Assembly (NCBI RefSeq): GCF_004363805.1
Contig: NZ_SNZP01000013.1
Coordinates: 62,001-126,000 of the forward strand
Source: Paludibacterium purpuratum
Lineage (GTDB): Bacteria > Pseudomonadota > Gammaproteobacteria > Burkholderiales > Chromobacteriaceae
Length of the DNA: 64,000 nucleotides
Reading direction: 5' to 3'
Shown here piece after piece: positions 1,795 to 26,064 of this stretch (positions are counted from its first letter, which is position 1; the number at the start of each line of letters is the position of its first letter). A program made the translations under genes and the position numbers. The notes under the pieces were generated by a model, which was not told the origin of the DNA, searched no databases, and saw only the letters and a program-made list of their open reading frames with translations.

Positions 1795-3702
1795 ATGAGC
1801 GCACATAAAGAGACCTTGGGCTTTCAGGCCGAAGTGAAGCAACTCCTGCAACTGATGATCCACTCCTTGTATTCCAATAAGGAGATTTTCCTGCGGGAAC
1901 TCGTTTCCAATGCCTCGGATGCCGCCGATAAACTGCGTTTCGAGTCGATGAGTAACCCGGCGCTGCTGGACGAGGACGGCGAGCTCAAGATCCGTGTCAG
2001 CTTCGACTCGGCGGCACGCACGCTGACCGTGGCCGATAATGGCATCGGTATGAGCCGTGACGAGGTGATCGAACATATCGGCACCATCGCCAAGTCCGGC
2101 ACGCGTAAATTCTTCGAGGCGCTGACCGGCGACGCTCAAAAGGACGCCAACCTAATCGGTCAGTTCGGTGTCGGTTTCTACTCCGCTTTTATCGTGGCCG
2201 ACAAGGTGACGCTGACCACGCGCCGTGCCGGTGCCGCCGCCGAGAGCGGTGTGCGCTGGGAGTCGACCGGCCACGGCGAATACACGCTGGAAGCCGTCGA
2301 TAAGCCGAATCGCGGTACCGAAGTGGTGCTGCATTTGAAAGAGGGCGAGGACGAGTTCCTCAACGACTGGCGTCTGCGCCACATCGTGCGCACCTATTCC
2401 GACCATATCTCGCTGCCGATCGAGATGAAGACCGTCGCAACCGCGGACGAAGAGGGCAAGGAAGCCGCCGAGACCGAGGAAACATTCGAAGCGGTCAACC
2501 AGGCCTCCGCACTGTGGGCGCGCGCCAAGAGCGAGATCAGCGACGAACAATACCGCGAGTTCTACAAGCATGTGGCGCACGACTTCAGCGATCCGCTGGC
2601 ATGGAGCCACGCTCGCGTCGAAGGACGCCAGGAATACACCGAGTTGTTGTACATCCCATCGCGTGCCCCGTTCGATCTGTACGACCGCGAACGCAAGCAG
2701 GGCGTCAAACTGTATGTCCGCCGCGTGTTCATCATGGAAGATACGGAAAAGCTGATGCCGCATTACCTGCGCTTCGTGCGCGGGGTCATCGATGCCAGCG
2801 ATCTGCCACTTAACGTATCGCGTGAAATCCTGCAGGAATCGAAGGATATCGACGCCATCCGCGCCGGTTGCATCAAAAAAGTGCTCGGTATGCTCGACGA
2901 CCTGGCACAGAACGATGCCGACAAGTACGCCAGCTTCTGGCGCGAGTTTGGCCAAGTGCTGAAAGAAGGCGTGGGCGAAGACTTCGCCAACAAGGAGCGC
3001 ATCGCCAAATTGCTGCGCTTCCACTCCACTGCCGGCGAGAGCGACGCCGCCGACGTTTCGTTGGCCGATTACGTCGGCCGCATGAAGGAAGGTCAGGAGA
3101 AGATCTACTTCATCACCGCGGAAACGCTGGCCGCGGCCAAGAATAGCCCGCACCTGGAAGTCTTCAAGAAGAAGGGTATCGAAGTCCTGCTGTTGGTCGA
3201 CCGGGTCGACGAATGGGTCGGTAGCCATCTGCACGACTTCGAAGGCAAGGCGCTGCAGTCGGTCGCCAAGGGCGAACTCGATCTGGGCGCGCTGGAAGAC
3301 GAAGCCGATAAAGTCGCGCAGCAACAAGCCGAAGAGGCTGCCAAACCGGTGATCGGCCGCATCGCCGCGGCACTAGGCGAGCGGGTCAAGGAAGTACGCG
3401 CTACCGCGCGGTTGACCGATAGCCCTGCTTGCTTGGTGGTGGGCGAGCACGATATGAGTGCGCATCTGGAGCGCCTGCTCAAGTCGGCGGGCCAGGATGT
3501 GCCCGACGTCAAACCGGTGCTCGAGATCAACCCGGAGCATGTCCTGGTGCAGCGGTTGTCGTCGGAGGCCGACGAGGCGCGCGCGGCCGACTTGGCCCAG
3601 GTGCTGTACGACCAGGCGTTGCTGGCCGAAGGGGGCAAGCTCGACGATCCGGCATCCTTCGTCAAACGCATCAACCGCTTGATGCTTGAACTGTCTGCTT
3701 GA
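1795..3702 (+). CDS. htpG: Molecular chaperone HtpG (bacterial Hsp90)
   Basis: A full-length 635-residue Hsp90. The N-terminal GHKL ATPase domain shows [15 protein letters not shown] and [11 protein letters not shown], followed by the middle client and catalytic domain ([13 protein letters not shown], with the conserved Arg) and the C-terminal dimerisation domain. As in other bacterial HtpG proteins there is no long charged linker and no MEEVD tail. It is a cytosolic dimeric ATP-dependent chaperone. It is monocistronic: a sigma-32-like promoter precedes it and a strong nested hairpin follows it at 3710-3745. Confidence 0.97.
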
Positions 3703-3709
3703 TCTTTCT

Positions 3710-3745
3710 CCCCGCCCAGCCGGTCATGAGACCGGTAGGGCGGGG
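3710..3745. terminator. Nested hairpin between convergent htpG and 3768-4220
   Basis: An outer stem CCCCGCCC/GGGCGGGG (8 bp) encloses an inner stem CCGGTC-ATGA-GACCGG. It lies 7 nt after the htpG stop and beyond the stop of the convergent minus-strand gene, so it probably serves both directions. There is no long T-run on either side. Confidence 0.6.
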
Positions 3746-3767
3746 ATTCCTACCTATCCGGGGCGGG

Positions 3768-4220
3768 TTAACGCTTCTCCGGCATCAACGACGAATGGTG
3801 GCTGGTGATCAGCCACTGTTTGCCATCGTAGTCGTAGGTGAAGGTGTAGCGCGCGTGCGCGAGACTGCCGTCGCCGAAGCGGAACGTGTATAGGCCGCTA
3901 TCCAGCGCCGAATTACAGCCAATGCTAACGACGCGCTGGTCGATCTGACCGACCGGCTTCTTGACCAGGAAATGCTCAAAATAGTCGATCTTTTCCGCCT
4001 GCGTCAGCCGGGGCTTGTTAGACAGCGTCGGGAGCAGGAGCGAGCCCTGTGCGTAGTTGGCGGCGACCTTTGCCGGGTCGCCGGTTTGCAGCGAGGCATT
4101 CCAGCGGTCGAATAAGCCGGCGATTTCGGCTTGTGTGGTCGGCTTGCAGTTGGTGTCGGCATACGCGAGCGCGTTGGTGCCGGCAAGCACCAACGACAGG
4201 CAGAACGATAGAACTTTCAT
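3768..4220 (-). CDS. Secreted SnoaL-like (SgcJ/EcaC-type) protein
   Basis: 150 residues. Residues 1-21 are a signal peptide (MKVLSFCLSLVLAGTNALAYA), so the product is probably periplasmic. The rest fits the cone-shaped NTF2/SnoaL fold seen in the SgcJ/EcaC and CaMKII-association-domain-like families: EIAGLFDRWNASLQTGDPAKVAANYA, then LLLPTLSN, HFLVKKPVGQI and the C-terminal strand pair YTFTYDYDGKQWLITSHHSS. The HHSSLMPEKR ending is the usual end of that family. The function of secreted members is unknown; ligand binding or an enzymatic role are both possible. An SD-like AGGAGAAAT precedes the ATG. Confidence 0.72.
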   Translation of the reverse strand: MKVLSFCLSLVLAGTNALAYADTNCKPTTQAEIAGLFDRWNASLQTGDPAKVAANYAQGSLLLPTLSNKPRLTQAEKIDYFEHFLVKKPVGQIDQRVVSIGCNSALDSGLYTFRFGDGSLAHARYTFTYDYDGKQWLITSHHSSLMPEKR

Positions 4221-4401
4221 GGCGATTTCTCCTTATTTTGATGCGAACGATCCGCATGAAGGCAATGCGGCCGTGAGATTCTAGTGTTCTGTTGATCGCG
4301 AATAGCTAGGAAGAGTCTTAACAGGTCGACATTTGTCGTTCGCGCGCCCCTTTCCCCTCGGACGAGAGGTGAGGGCACGCGTTTCGGTCACGCAAAACGT
4401 A

Positions 4402-5013
4402 TCAAGCCGACGGCGGGCAGGTGTCGACGAAGGACGGGCGCGTTTCCAGCTTTTGCTGCAAGGCGAGCAGGTTGGGATAGGCATCCTTCCACTGAATATC
4501 GGGGAAGCGGAAGTCCAGGTAGGCCAGGCAGCAGCCTACGGCGATGTCCGCCAGGCTGTAACCGTCGCCGTGGCACCACGGTCGTTCGCCCAGGTCGTGC
4601 GATAGCGCCGCCAGGCCGCGATCGATCTTTCCGTGCTGACGATCGAGCCATTCCTGGCTTTGTTGGACTGCCGGACGTTTCTTCTCCAGGAAGATCGCCA
4701 CCGCGGCATCGATGATGCCGTCGGCCAGCGCTTCCCAGCGCTTGGTCTGGATCAGTTGACGGTTGCCGTCCGGCAACAGCCGCTGAACCGGCGAAACGTT
4801 GTCTAGATATTCGACGATGACGCGCGAATCGAACAGTGTCATGCCGTCGTCGAGTTCGAGTACCGGCACCTTGCCCAACGGGTTGTAGTCGGGCACTTTG
4901 CTGTCGGCATTCCAGGGAATGTCGACCTCGATCGGGCAGTCGATTTTCTTTTCCGCCAGCACGATACGCACCTTGCGGGCATAGGGGCTGGTGAGCGAAG
5001 CGATCAGTTTCAT
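4402..5013 (-). CDS. Glutathione S-transferase family protein (YibF-like)
   Basis: 203 residues. The N-terminal thioredoxin-like domain begins MKLIASLTSPYARKVRIVLAEK, with the Ser/Pro glutathione-activating region at residues 8-10. It continues with NPLGKVPVLELDDG (cis-Pro) and the SNAIL-type position DSRVIVEYLD. The helical C-terminal domain follows (ALADGIIDAAVAI and YSLADIAVGCCLAYLDFRFPDI, the N-capping box). It reads closest to E. coli YibF, a GST of unknown substrate. The gene is a single minus-strand unit between two unrelated genes. The 181-nt gap before the next gene (4221-4401) holds nothing I can name. Confidence 0.88.
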   Translation of the reverse strand: MKLIASLTSPYARKVRIVLAEKKIDCPIEVDIPWNADSKVPDYNPLGKVPVLELDDGMTLFDSRVIVEYLDNVSPVQRLLPDGNRQLIQTKRWEALADGIIDAAVAIFLEKKRPAVQQSQEWLDRQHGKIDRGLAALSHDLGERPWCHGDGYSLADIAVGCCLAYLDFRFPDIQWKDAYPNLLALQQKLETRPSFVDTCPPSA

Positions 5014-22425: not shown

Positions 22426-22506
22426 TCTATGGCGCAATCGCTGGCGATTGCGCCGTTTCGACAGACACAACCGATGCGGCTCGACCCGCGTCAGGGAGAC
22501 ATAACA

Positions 22507-23532
22507 ATGAAAGCGCTGGCTAAACTCAAGTCCGAACGCGGTCTGTGGTTGACCGACGTCGCCAAACCCGAAGTCGGTCACAACGACCTGTTGATCCAGA
22601 TCCGCAAGACAGCCATCTGCGGCACCGACATCCATATCTACAACTGGGACGAATGGGCGCAGAAAACCATCCCGGTGCCGATGCACGTTGGCCATGAATA
22701 CGTCGGTGTGGTTGCCGGCATGGGCTCGGAAGTCAAAGGTTTCGAAATCGGCGACCGCGTCTCCGGCGAAGGCCACATCACTTGCGGTTACTGCCGCAAC
22801 TGTCGCGCCGGGCGTCGCCACCTGTGCCGCAACACCGTCGGTGTCGGCGTCAACCGCGAAGGTGCGTTTGCCGAATATCTGGTGATCCCGGCTTTCAATG
22901 CCTTCAAACTGCCGCCGGACATCTCCGACGATCTGGCATCGATCTTCGATCCGTTCGGCAATGCCGTGCACACCGCGCTGTCGTTCAACCTGGTCGGCGA
23001 GGATGTACTGATCACCGGCGCAGGCCCGATCGGCATCATGGCGGTGGCGATCGCGCGCCACGTCGGCGCGCGTCATGTGGTGGTCACCGACGTCAACGAA
23101 TATCGGCTCGACCTGGCCCGCAAAATGGGCGCCAGCCGAGCGGTCAACGTGGCGAAGGAAGATCTGCGCGAAGTGATGGGCCAATTGCATATGTGCGAGG
23201 GTTTCGACGTCGGCCTGGAAATGTCCGGCAACCCGCAAGCCTTCCGCCAGATGCTGGAAACCATGAATCACGGCGGCAAGATCGCCCTCCTGGGCATCCC
23301 GCCGGCCAACACCGCCATCGATTGGAACCAGGTCATCTTCAAGGGCCTGGAAATCAAGGGGATCTACGGTCGCGAAATGTTCGAGACCTGGTACAAGATG
23401 GTGGCCCTGATCCAGTCTGGCCTCGATATCACGCCGATCATCACCCACCACTACAAGATCGACGACTTCCAGCAAGGCTTCGATGCCATGCTGTCCGGTC
23501 AGTCGGGTAAGGTGATTCTCGACTGGGCGTGA
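22507..23532 (+). CDS. tdh: L-threonine 3-dehydrogenase
   Basis: 341 residues, the exact E. coli Tdh length, from the ATG at 22507 after GGGAG; an in-frame start at 22429 would add 26 unrelated residues. It is a zinc-dependent medium-chain dehydrogenase that oxidises threonine to 2-amino-3-ketobutyrate for Kbl. Catalytic zinc ligands are in [13 protein letters not shown] and HVGHEYVG; structural zinc cysteines in [18 protein letters not shown]; the NAD motif in [11 protein letters not shown]. It ends at a strong terminator shared with the convergent cytochrome-porin gene. Confidence 0.97.
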
Positions 23533-23597: not shown

Positions 23598-24926
23598 CTA
23601 GAAGGCGACCCAGGAGTAGAGGTACAGGGTGTTGTTGTCATGGGCGTTGCTGCCGTTGCCATCGTAATTGGTCGCCGCCCCCATGAATGCGTTGTAAGCC
23701 GTGTACTGCAGGCCAAGGCGCCACCATGGGCGCGGCATGTAGTCGAATTCGACGATCTGACCGCGCGTGTTTGGGCTGCCGTTGGCGGAAGTGGGGTAAA
23801 GCAAGGCGTCGTGGCTGCCGTCGACGTGGAACACGCCCAGTGTCAGTCCCCATTGGCGTCGATACCAGTATGAAATTTTTGCCTGCGCGCTGTGCAGCGT
23901 GTCGCTGTTGTTGCTCTGGTTGACGCCGAGTCCGACCTGATTCCAATTGGTGTGCTCATCGATGTATGAGGCCTGCATGGAGACACTGTGGGGCTCGGAT
24001 AAATACTGGTACTGTGCGTCAAGCCCGATGTCGCGAAAGTGATTCGAGGGCGCGCCGTTGCTGCCGGGGTCGACGCTGACGTGGGCATCGAGCCCGAAGG
24101 TGCCGATTTCCAGCGAATGTGGGCCCCAGTCCCGGTTCCATGCCAGGCGCCAATAGGGGTTATTGCCCTCGAGCCGGTTGTAAAAAGACACGCCGCGGCT
24201 GAACAGGCCGAACTTGCCGTCCGCGGCTTGGTAATCTCCCAGCTCGACATACCAGCGGCGATTGAGGAGTGCGTAGGCGGACAGGCCGACGGCTTGTTGT
24301 GCGAGTCCCTCGGCGATCAAAGGCGCGGGCGGCGTGTTGAGCCAGGTGTTGTACGACAAATTGGAAACCTGATACGGAAAGCTCAAGGCGGGCGTGGTGT
24401 TCCAGGCGTCCTGTCTGGTCGGGTTGTTGTTGAGCGACAGCCCGTAGATCAGATCCTGGTCCTGGTTTGCGCTATGGCCGACAAAGCGAAGGTCGGTGTT
24501 ATCGCTCGCAAGCCCAGCGTCGAATCGCGTGCTGCCGTTGTCGTCGGTGGAGGAGGCCAGATTATCGTAAGTCCATTTAGAGAAGATGCCGATGTGCTCG
24601 TCCAGTTTGCCGGCGATAAATAAACTCCCGCCCTCGATGACGCCTTGATTGTTCTTGGGATAGTTATGCGTGTTATTGGCCACGCCGGTGTGTGACGCGG
24701 TGAGTGTGGCCGACAAGGGAAACAACGAGGTGCTGCCCAGGGTATAGCCAGACAGCTTGAACGCGCGGCCTTCTGGGGTGAGTTCGGGGGCGCCGAGGTG
24801 GCAGGCGGCACAGTCCAGGCCCGTCTGGCGGGCGAATGCCGGAACAGCTTGCGCAGGCGCGTGCCATAACAGGGCGGCGCAGACGATGAGCGGGAACAAG
24901 CGCCGAAATAAGAGAGCCGAGTGCAT
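23598..24926 (-). CDS. Outer-membrane monohaem cytochrome c-porin fusion (Cyc2-like architecture)
   Basis: 442 residues. A signal peptide (1-27, ending PAQA) is followed by a short domain with one c-type haem site, CAACH at 39-43. It is embedded in VPAFARQTGLDCAACH followed by APELTPEGRAFKLSGYTL. The remainder is Tyr/Trp/Asn-rich with alternating amphipathic strands and a terminal aromatic (YLYSWVAF), as in outer-membrane beta barrels. This N-terminal pattern and layout match fused cytochrome-porins such as Cyc2, which move electrons across the outer membrane in iron oxidisers. Related proteins also occur widely in non-iron-oxidisers, so the electron donor is unknown. AAAGGAAA lies before the ATG. 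No other cytochrome gene is adjacent. Confidence 0.75.
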   Translation of the reverse strand: MHSALLFRRLFPLIVCAALLWHAPAQAVPAFARQTGLDCAACHLGAPELTPEGRAFKLSGYTLGSTSLFPLSATLTASHTGVANNTHNYPKNNQGVIEGGSLFIAGKLDEHIGIFSKWTYDNLASSTDDNGSTRFDAGLASDNTDLRFVGHSANQDQDLIYGLSLNNNPTRQDAWNTTPALSFPYQVSNLSYNTWLNTPPAPLIAEGLAQQAVGLSAYALLNRRWYVELGDYQAADGKFGLFSRGVSFYNRLEGNNPYWRLAWNRDWGPHSLEIGTFGLDAHVSVDPGSNGAPSNHFRDIGLDAQYQYLSEPHSVSMQASYIDEHTNWNQVGLGVNQSNNSDTLHSAQAKISYWYRRQWGLTLGVFHVDGSHDALLYPTSANGSPNTRGQIVEFDYMPRPWWRLGLQYTAYNAFMGAATNYDGNGSNAHDNNTLYLYSWVAF

Positions 24927-25170
24927 ATCATTTCCTTTTTTTGATTATGACTGCGTCGTTTTAATTATTTATTTATTGATCATATCGGCAATGGGTGGGG
25001 ATGGCGATAGGGCAGGGCTGGCCAAGCTGCCACGGGCATCGTTCTCCTCGCCGAGACGAATACATGCCGAATCAAGGGCTTTGCACCAGGGGTTGCAACG
25101 GGCTCTTCTTTCCTCTGCGCCCGCGAACCGGTAGAATCTCCGTTTAATTTTCTCTTTGCTGAACGGCGTC

Positions 25171-26064
25171 ATGCTTACTTTCCAGGAAATTATCCTTACG
25201 CTGCAGAACTATTGGAATCGCCAGGGCTGCGCCCTGCTGCAGCCTTACGATATGGAAATGGGCGCGGGAACCTCGCATACCGCGACCTTCCTGCGCTCCA
25301 TCGGACCGGAGCCGTGGAACGCGGCCTACGTGCAGCCGTCGCGCCGGCCGAAGGACGGCCGCTATGGCGAAAACCCCAATCGGCTGCAGCACTACTACCA
25401 ATTCCAGGTGGTGCTCAAACCGTCGCCGTCGAATATCCAGGATCTGTACCTGGGCTCGTTGCGCGAATTGGGTATCGACACCACCGTGCACGACATCCGC
25501 TTCGTCGAGGACGATTGGGAGAACCCGACGCTCGGCGCGTGGGGGCTGGGCTGGGAAGTGTGGCTCAACGGTATGGAAGTCACCCAGTTCACCTACTTCC
25601 AGCAGGTCGGCGGCTTGGATTGCCGTCCGGTGCTGGGCGAGATCACCTATGGGCTCGAGCGCCTGGCGATGTACCTGCAGGGCGTGGAAAACGTCTACGA
25701 CCTGACCTGGACCGTTTATCCCAACGGCCAGAAAGTCAGCTACGGCGACGTGTTCCACCAAAACGAAGTCGAGCAGTCGCGCTATAACTTCGAGCATTCG
25801 AACGTGTCGTTCCTGTTCGAGCAGTTCAACCAGTTCGAGGGCGAGGCCAAGCGACTGTTGGACGCCGGTCTGCCGCTGCCGGGCTACGAGATGATCCTCA
25901 AGGCCGCGCATGCCTTTAACCTGCTCGATGCGCGCGGCGCCATCTCGGTGACGGAACGCGCCGCCTATATCGGCCGTATCCGCGCGTTGGCGCGCCAGGT
26001 AGCACAAGCCTATTACGACTCGCGCGAAGCCCTGGGCTTCCCGATGTGCCCGAAGGACGCTTGA
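25171..26064 (+). CDS. glyQ: Glycyl-tRNA synthetase alpha subunit
   Basis: 297 residues, the catalytic subunit of the bacterial alpha2beta2 glycyl-tRNA synthetase. Highly conserved blocks include [51 protein letters not shown] and [33 protein letters not shown]. The ATG at 25171 gives [12 protein letters not shown], matching the family, whereas the longer ORF begins at a TTG. glyS follows after a small gene whose ATG overlaps the glyQ stop. The 244-bp upstream gap (24927-25170) also contains the divergent cytochrome-porin promoter and holds nothing else I can name. Confidence 0.97.

Follow-up and report, generated by a model that had tools for sequence, protein, structure and literature searches.

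The closest described systems to the locus studied here are the Cyc2 proteins, which according to Keffer 2021 (PMC8406198) are marked by the consensus AXPXFAR[QK][TY], a CXXCH haem site, a PXL motif and a length of at least 365 residues, a signal peptide and a 16-strand outer-membrane barrel being further marks. In that study the barrel is reasoned to admit dissolved Fe(II), with the haem domain plugging its periplasmic mouth, and Fe(II) oxidation is reported for one Cyc2 protein from each of the three clusters; genetic tests are called for, additional functions are considered possible, and several sequences of Burkholderia, Ralstonia and Xanthomonas were removed before the Cyc2 tree was built. 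Li 2023 (PMC10654088) gives a network around the Acidithiobacillus Cyc2 in which Chromobacteriaceae, Burkholderiales, Rhodanobacteraceae and Acidiphilium appear, and describes the dihaem Cyc1 as coming after Cyc2 in Acidithiobacillus. Moreover, He 2017 reports Cyc2-like genes in Thiomonas as well as a cluster in Bradyrhizobium that includes homologues of HiPIP and Cyc1, and a granodiorite study by Napieralski and co-workers reports Cyc2 homologues in genomes without RuBisCO. Cyc2 genes are common outside the recognised iron oxidisers. Homologues of the Acidithiobacillus Cyc2 in Chromobacteriaceae are already in print (PMC10654088) and the kind is known; what is added here is detail within it, namely that one lineage lost the partner, where its gene was inserted and how far it is constrained. 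The original prediction had held such a protein to be notable in a heterotroph, a point to be corrected, since genes of this type had already been reported from heterotrophic Beta- and Gammaproteobacteria (Li 2023; Keffer 2021). Our literature search brought up no paper joining Cyc2 and Paludibacterium among the matches listed, which is no proof of absence.

The window, by which we mean the whole analysed stretch of 64,000 nucleotides from Paludibacterium purpuratum, carries one gene (Table 1) whose product has the marks given by Keffer 2021: one CXXCH, the consensus before it, PEL after it, and 442 residues where at least 365 are expected, the haem site lying 12 residues past the likely signal-peptide cut. 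The original prediction of a fused cytochrome-porin gene is thereby confirmed as an observation, and its interpretation is supported in part. The ORF is a genuine gene and not a chance frame, with relatives in at least 569 scanned stretches. As had been predicted, it is convergent with an ORF which we take to be tdh (threonine 3-dehydrogenase, from gene order plus the ADH domains found), which ends at 23532 with a gap of 65 bp, and it is divergent from an ORF which we take to be glyQ (glycyl-tRNA synthetase alpha, from sequence and order). AGGAAA stands immediately 5' of the ATG; the RNA fold of the upstream stretch is unremarkable (z 0.58), and no conserved regulator site was seen when this stretch was compared by eye with that of the closest relative, L036. 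A foreign origin is not indicated by composition, the GC3 being 0.776 versus 0.785 to 0.832 in the neighbours. The beta barrel is predicted from homology together with a weak periodicity signal in the porin part, which is equalled by 10 of 300 shuffles. Pfam and NCBIfam searches with the window protein returned no matching model, an alignment of 60 rows (A2) gave nothing convincing against the same two collections, PDB sequence searches found no relative, and the profile comparison with the phosphate porins (Porin_O_P) was not significant, with a probability of about 8-10.

Table 1. Features of the cytochrome-porin locus and its neighbours in the window
Feature	Positions	Strand	Basis
Cyc2-type cytochrome-porin gene	23598..24926	minus	ORF, ATG start, 442 aa + stop
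Putative signal peptide, residues 1-27 (AQA|VPAF)	24846..24926	minus	read by eye
Cyc2 consensus AXPXFAR[QK][TY] = AVPAFARQT, residues 27-35	24822..24848	minus	motif of PMC8406198
Haem c site CAACH, residues 39-43	24798..24812	minus	sole CXXCH of the protein
Predicted porin part, residues 64-442	23601..24737	minus	hhalign of barrel part; homology
Residue 46, A in the window protein	24789..24791	minus	column of relatives' alignment
Residue 74, T in the window protein	24705..24707	minus	column of family alignment
Intergenic stretch shared with divergent glyQ	24927..25170	minus	two putative sigma-70-like matches on the minus strand
ORF taken as tdh, convergent neighbour, outside the system	22429..23532	plus	ADH domains + gene order
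ORF taken as glyQ, divergent neighbour, outside the system	25171..26064	plus	sequence + gene order

The window genome (4.04 Mb, 99.9% complete) has one copy of the gene. A match at E 1e-10 or better was found in 14 of the 61 genomes of the family-level search, so the distribution is patchy; the class-wide search covered 369 genomes and 63 of them gave matches. Among named genomes, at least 595 stretches were matched by a profile scan, 569 of the listed ones encoding a relative, and the best 80 were kept. All 80 of these best relatives, among at least 569, have exactly one CXXCH, and the strict motif is present in 72 while FNRQT replaces FARQT in the other 8. The closest among the matches listed is the copy of a Paludibacterium MAG (L036), which is 81% identical over the protein and has the same neighbours.

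The placement of the protein was examined by a quick tree of 81 of the 142 collected rows, with SH-aLRT support and without bootstrap, in which three long branches (L027, L177, L205) are flagged. The window protein pairs with L036 (SH-aLRT 100), and the sister of this pair is the partnered copy L023 of genome G002 (98); the three fall within a clade (100) whose ten rows come from Chromobacteriaceae and their relatives, and which in turn is nested in a 62-row clade (100, branch 1.85) holding L154, the Cyc2-like gene of an operon in G323. Two other groups of CXXCH-porins lie outside the 62-row clade, with haem blocks of the FQHFP type and of the HSAFPAL type, and the former we take as Cluster 1 by its motif. 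By hhalign, the window profile matches a ten-row group including the G323 gene over the full length at E 1e-128 (8e-105 for the barrel part alone), the Cluster 1-like group at 8e-27 and the other CXXCH-porin group at 5e-18. As for the G323 operon, the rusticyanin search covered 28 genomes with a curated cut-off of 146.7 bits, and the match in G323, about 7 kb from L154 on the same strand, is just under it at 137 bits; the order read by eye is cyc2-like, cupredoxin-like, coxB-, coxA-, coxC-, ctaA- and ctaB-like and rusticyanin-like, of which the rusticyanin alone was tested with a model, and no cyc1 is found in it, unlike the printed orders of Acidithiobacillus, Acidiferrobacter and Acidihalobacter. 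On its motifs, its profile match and its clade, the window protein belongs to the Cyc2-family fused cytochrome-porins and groups with a Cyc2-like gene of a rusticyanin-type operon, apart from the two other groups, so that the Cyc2 kinship proposed in the original prediction holds.

Compared with the Cyc2 of Acidithiobacillus ferrooxidans (rus operon, Cluster 2), the window protein shares the fused monohaem c domain and the predicted barrel as well as the full-length profile match, for which the G323 gene served as a stand-in for the A. ferrooxidans sequence, and its partnered relatives repeat the cyc2-cyc1 order; the window genome differs as that of a heterotroph without rusticyanin, an adjacent Cyc1-like gene or a RuBisCO match. 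With Cyc2PV-1 of Mariprofundus ferrooxydans (Cluster 1) it shares the haem block, namely FAR[QK][TY], CXXCH, P.L, G and FK, although the Cluster 1-like group, assigned by its motif, forms a separate group in the tree. The published architecture of Cyt572 from Leptospirillum (Cluster 3) is the same. MtoAB and PioAB are also published as passing electrons at the outer membrane, but by a separate decahaem cytochrome and a 26-strand porin, where the window has one protein with one haem.

A further difference is the missing partner. Nine partner sequences were used as probes at the best 80 of at least 569 named loci, where directly downstream means a start within 400 nt. A dihaem c4-like cytochrome, to be compared with Cyc1, lies directly downstream in 72 of these 80 and upstream in one (L061), and no dihaem partner was found in the remaining seven (L036, L066, L082, L087, L099, L104, for which only 1,859 nt downstream were searched, and L110). 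Within the window's family the partner stands beside 13 of the 15 CXXCH copies, one of those 13 being broken, and a partner match is missing only at the window gene and its Paludibacterium orthologue (L010/L036). Outside the clade genes standing alone are frequent: 33 further stretches, which have short flanks and are in some cases repeated, gave a dihaem match in 9, and there is none beside the operon gene L154. The absence of the partner is a trait of the Paludibacterium lineage. The lone position described in the original prediction is thus right for the locus, but it belongs to the lineage, 72 of the 80 best named relatives having an adjoining dihaem cytochrome. As the relatives are mostly partnered, and as Cyc1 comes after Cyc2 in Acidithiobacillus, the window gene comes from a lineage working as a Cyc2-Cyc1 pair and now stands alone.

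Such an origin is supported by the site between tdh and glyQ, which lacks the gene in other genomes. In a survey of 12 genomes with glyQ as the probe, five (G003, G006, G008, G016 and G032) have no cyc2-like gene at the site, tdh being 0.2 to 0.95 kb upstream of glyQ. An FAD oxidase-like ORF separates tdh from glyQ in G001, and one similar to it is found 5' of glyQ in G004 and G005; these three ORFs (L163, L164, L165), from genomes of the same genus, are presumably protoporphyrinogen oxidase-like. No tdh is present within the glyQ stretch of G007, G011 and G036, while in G002 the cyc2-like gene occupies the site as in the window. The tdh-glyQ spot is therefore variable, and the cyc2-like gene entered there in the lineage of the window and G002.

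The lone gene looks maintained under purifying selection. The two lone copies give a dN/dS of 0.15 (Nei-Gojobori), compared with 0.075 to 0.361 in five pairs of relatives; in the two genomes that carry them, kbl, hemB and glyQ give 0.033 to 0.056. The gene is therefore constrained, but less than its housekeeping neighbours. In all 116 family rows K57, H43 and the haem block are invariant. Both lone copies depart at 4 of 79 conserved columns (F46A, M74T, Q117K and Y359W). Partnered pairs depart at 0 to 3 of these columns, the partnerless Thiomonas pair L087/L110 at 8 and L066 alone at 6; the latter two cases rule out that such divergence is unique to the window pair. M74 is present in 107 of the 116 rows, the window pair being among the nine without it, and a general role of this residue as haem ligand is unlikely given these nine; the window protein has no Met between residues 1 and 317. 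At residue 46, among the best 80 named relatives together with the window, all 72 copies partnered downstream have F, as does the single copy partnered upstream, against one of the eight partnerless copies. We do not press this position as a docking residue, since the eight partnerless copies represent about four lineages, the partnered family copy L013 has Y, and F occurs without a dihaem neighbour outside the clade (e.g. L158, L197, L204, L141).

The lone copy must operate with general cytochromes or not at all, and the original claim that it has no cytochrome partners, correct for the locus and the window, fails for the genome. The window shows no other credible c-type cytochrome: of its three further CXXCH frames of at least 90 aa, one reads by eye as a DnaJ-like zinc finger and the other two as alternative frames. 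The genome has ten Cytochrom_C domains in seven ORFs, none of them on the window's contig (C13). One of these ORFs is a dihaem c4 (G000:C11) of 201 residues, 40% identical over 176 residues to the Ideonella partner. There are also four COX1-family proteins, one beside a 418-aa haem-c ORF and one beside a 324-aa two-haem ORF, and one narG match; no match to rusticyanin, HiPIP or the RuBisCO large chain was found in the genome.

From sequence comparison we infer the barrel, location, substrate, direction and acceptor of the window protein as follows. The short N-terminal monohaem c domain would plug the periplasmic mouth of the predicted beta barrel. The haem would be reduced by a small electron donor coming in from outside, most likely dissolved Fe(II), and would pass the electron to a soluble c-type cytochrome in the periplasm. 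For most close relatives this acceptor would be the dihaem c4-like cytochrome encoded directly downstream; since the gene is alone between tdh and glyQ, in the Paludibacterium lineage it is probably the general dihaem c4, with a haem-copper oxidase after it. As there is no RuBisCO match, the gain would be extra energy or the removal of Fe(II) in a heterotroph and not autotrophy. To this view as a whole, that electrons of dissolved Fe(II) or another small donor enter the general cytochrome pool, we would give about even weight. Several points count against it, namely the Porin_O_P match that is not significant, the lack of rusticyanin, HiPIP and RuBisCO matches, the changed conserved sites, M74T and Q117K among them, and a dN/dS above that of kbl, hemB and glyQ. 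A Gallionellaceae study (PMC10734462) moreover states that iron oxidation by a Cluster 2 Cyc2 requires a supporting context.

The main alternative keeps the fold and the inward flow and replaces iron by another donor, for example a reduced sulfur or organic compound. It agrees with the occurrence of the family, among the matches listed, in organisms not known as iron oxidisers (Burkholderia, Ralstonia, Chromobacterium and Roseateles), with the altered sites of the lone copies and with the further functions allowed by Keffer 2021; however, one protein of every cluster is reported there to oxidise Fe(II), K57, H43 and the haem block are kept throughout the family rows, and the neighbours point to no particular donor. 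We regard this alternative as less likely than the view above. A rather unlikely reading is a shift of function in the lone Paludibacterium form of Cyc2, which would have departed from the Cyc2-Cyc1 module, settled between tdh and glyQ, given up M74, Q117 and the aromatic residue 46 that partnered relatives retain, and would now serve the general c4 with a retuned haem or pore, perhaps with a donor other than iron. If such a shift is true it can be tested directly in G002, which carries both the lone and the partnered forms; in fact a heterotroph with one lone copy, together with a sister species having lone and partnered copies, makes a simple setting for genetic tests.

Quite improbable, compared with the entry of electrons into the general cytochrome pool, is that the lone copy is a remnant heading for loss after its partner. 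The partner is indeed absent, dN/dS is above that of the neighbouring genes, and a relative in G011 is broken, its Cyc2-like gene being split into separate frames (two; L016/L024, G011:C4, 71801-73044) beside an intact dihaem partner; nevertheless the frame is intact in two species at the same site, its dN/dS falls inside the range of the five pairs of relatives, and the haem block and the C-terminal block are preserved. An outward flow, in which the protein passes electrons to an external acceptor, is improbable to the same degree: sequence does not fix the direction and several c-type cytochromes of the genome could supply electrons, but the characterised relatives take electrons from Fe(II), and a published argument holds that one haem located at the periplasmic mouth should not span the membrane. 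A mainly porin role with a structural or redox-sensing haem, for which a haem-less full-length relative speaks (L234 at about 1461462-1462373 of G442:C1, a paralogue of 402 aa without CXXCH and with 37% identity across porin residues 137-439, in a genome that also holds a normal partnered copy), is very improbable, as the CXXCH kept in every one of the best 80 named relatives and the dihaem cytochrome adjoining most of them argue for electron transfer.

Some further observations were made on the relatives. In L199 (G374:C55) an ORF with 19 CXXCH follows the Cyc2-like gene and its dihaem partner, at 2817-4499 and beyond, truncated where the stretch ends. The gene with its partner occurs in a MAG named Thiobacillus denitrificans (L106), and a nearly identical copy (L100) is found in a MAG named Rhizobium, so that one of the two organism names is probably wrong; one paper states that T. 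denitrificans ATCC 25259 is without Cyc2. Eight of the nine plasmid relatives were examined; an annotated c-type cytochrome stands near the gene in all eight, in one case upstream of it, and one has a HiPIP in addition. Three nearly identical Cyc2-like genes with a c-type cytochrome (L033, L034, L035), carried by plasmids from Acidiphilium and from a strain of Acidithiobacillus ferrooxidans, adjoin transposase genes and represent a mobile form.
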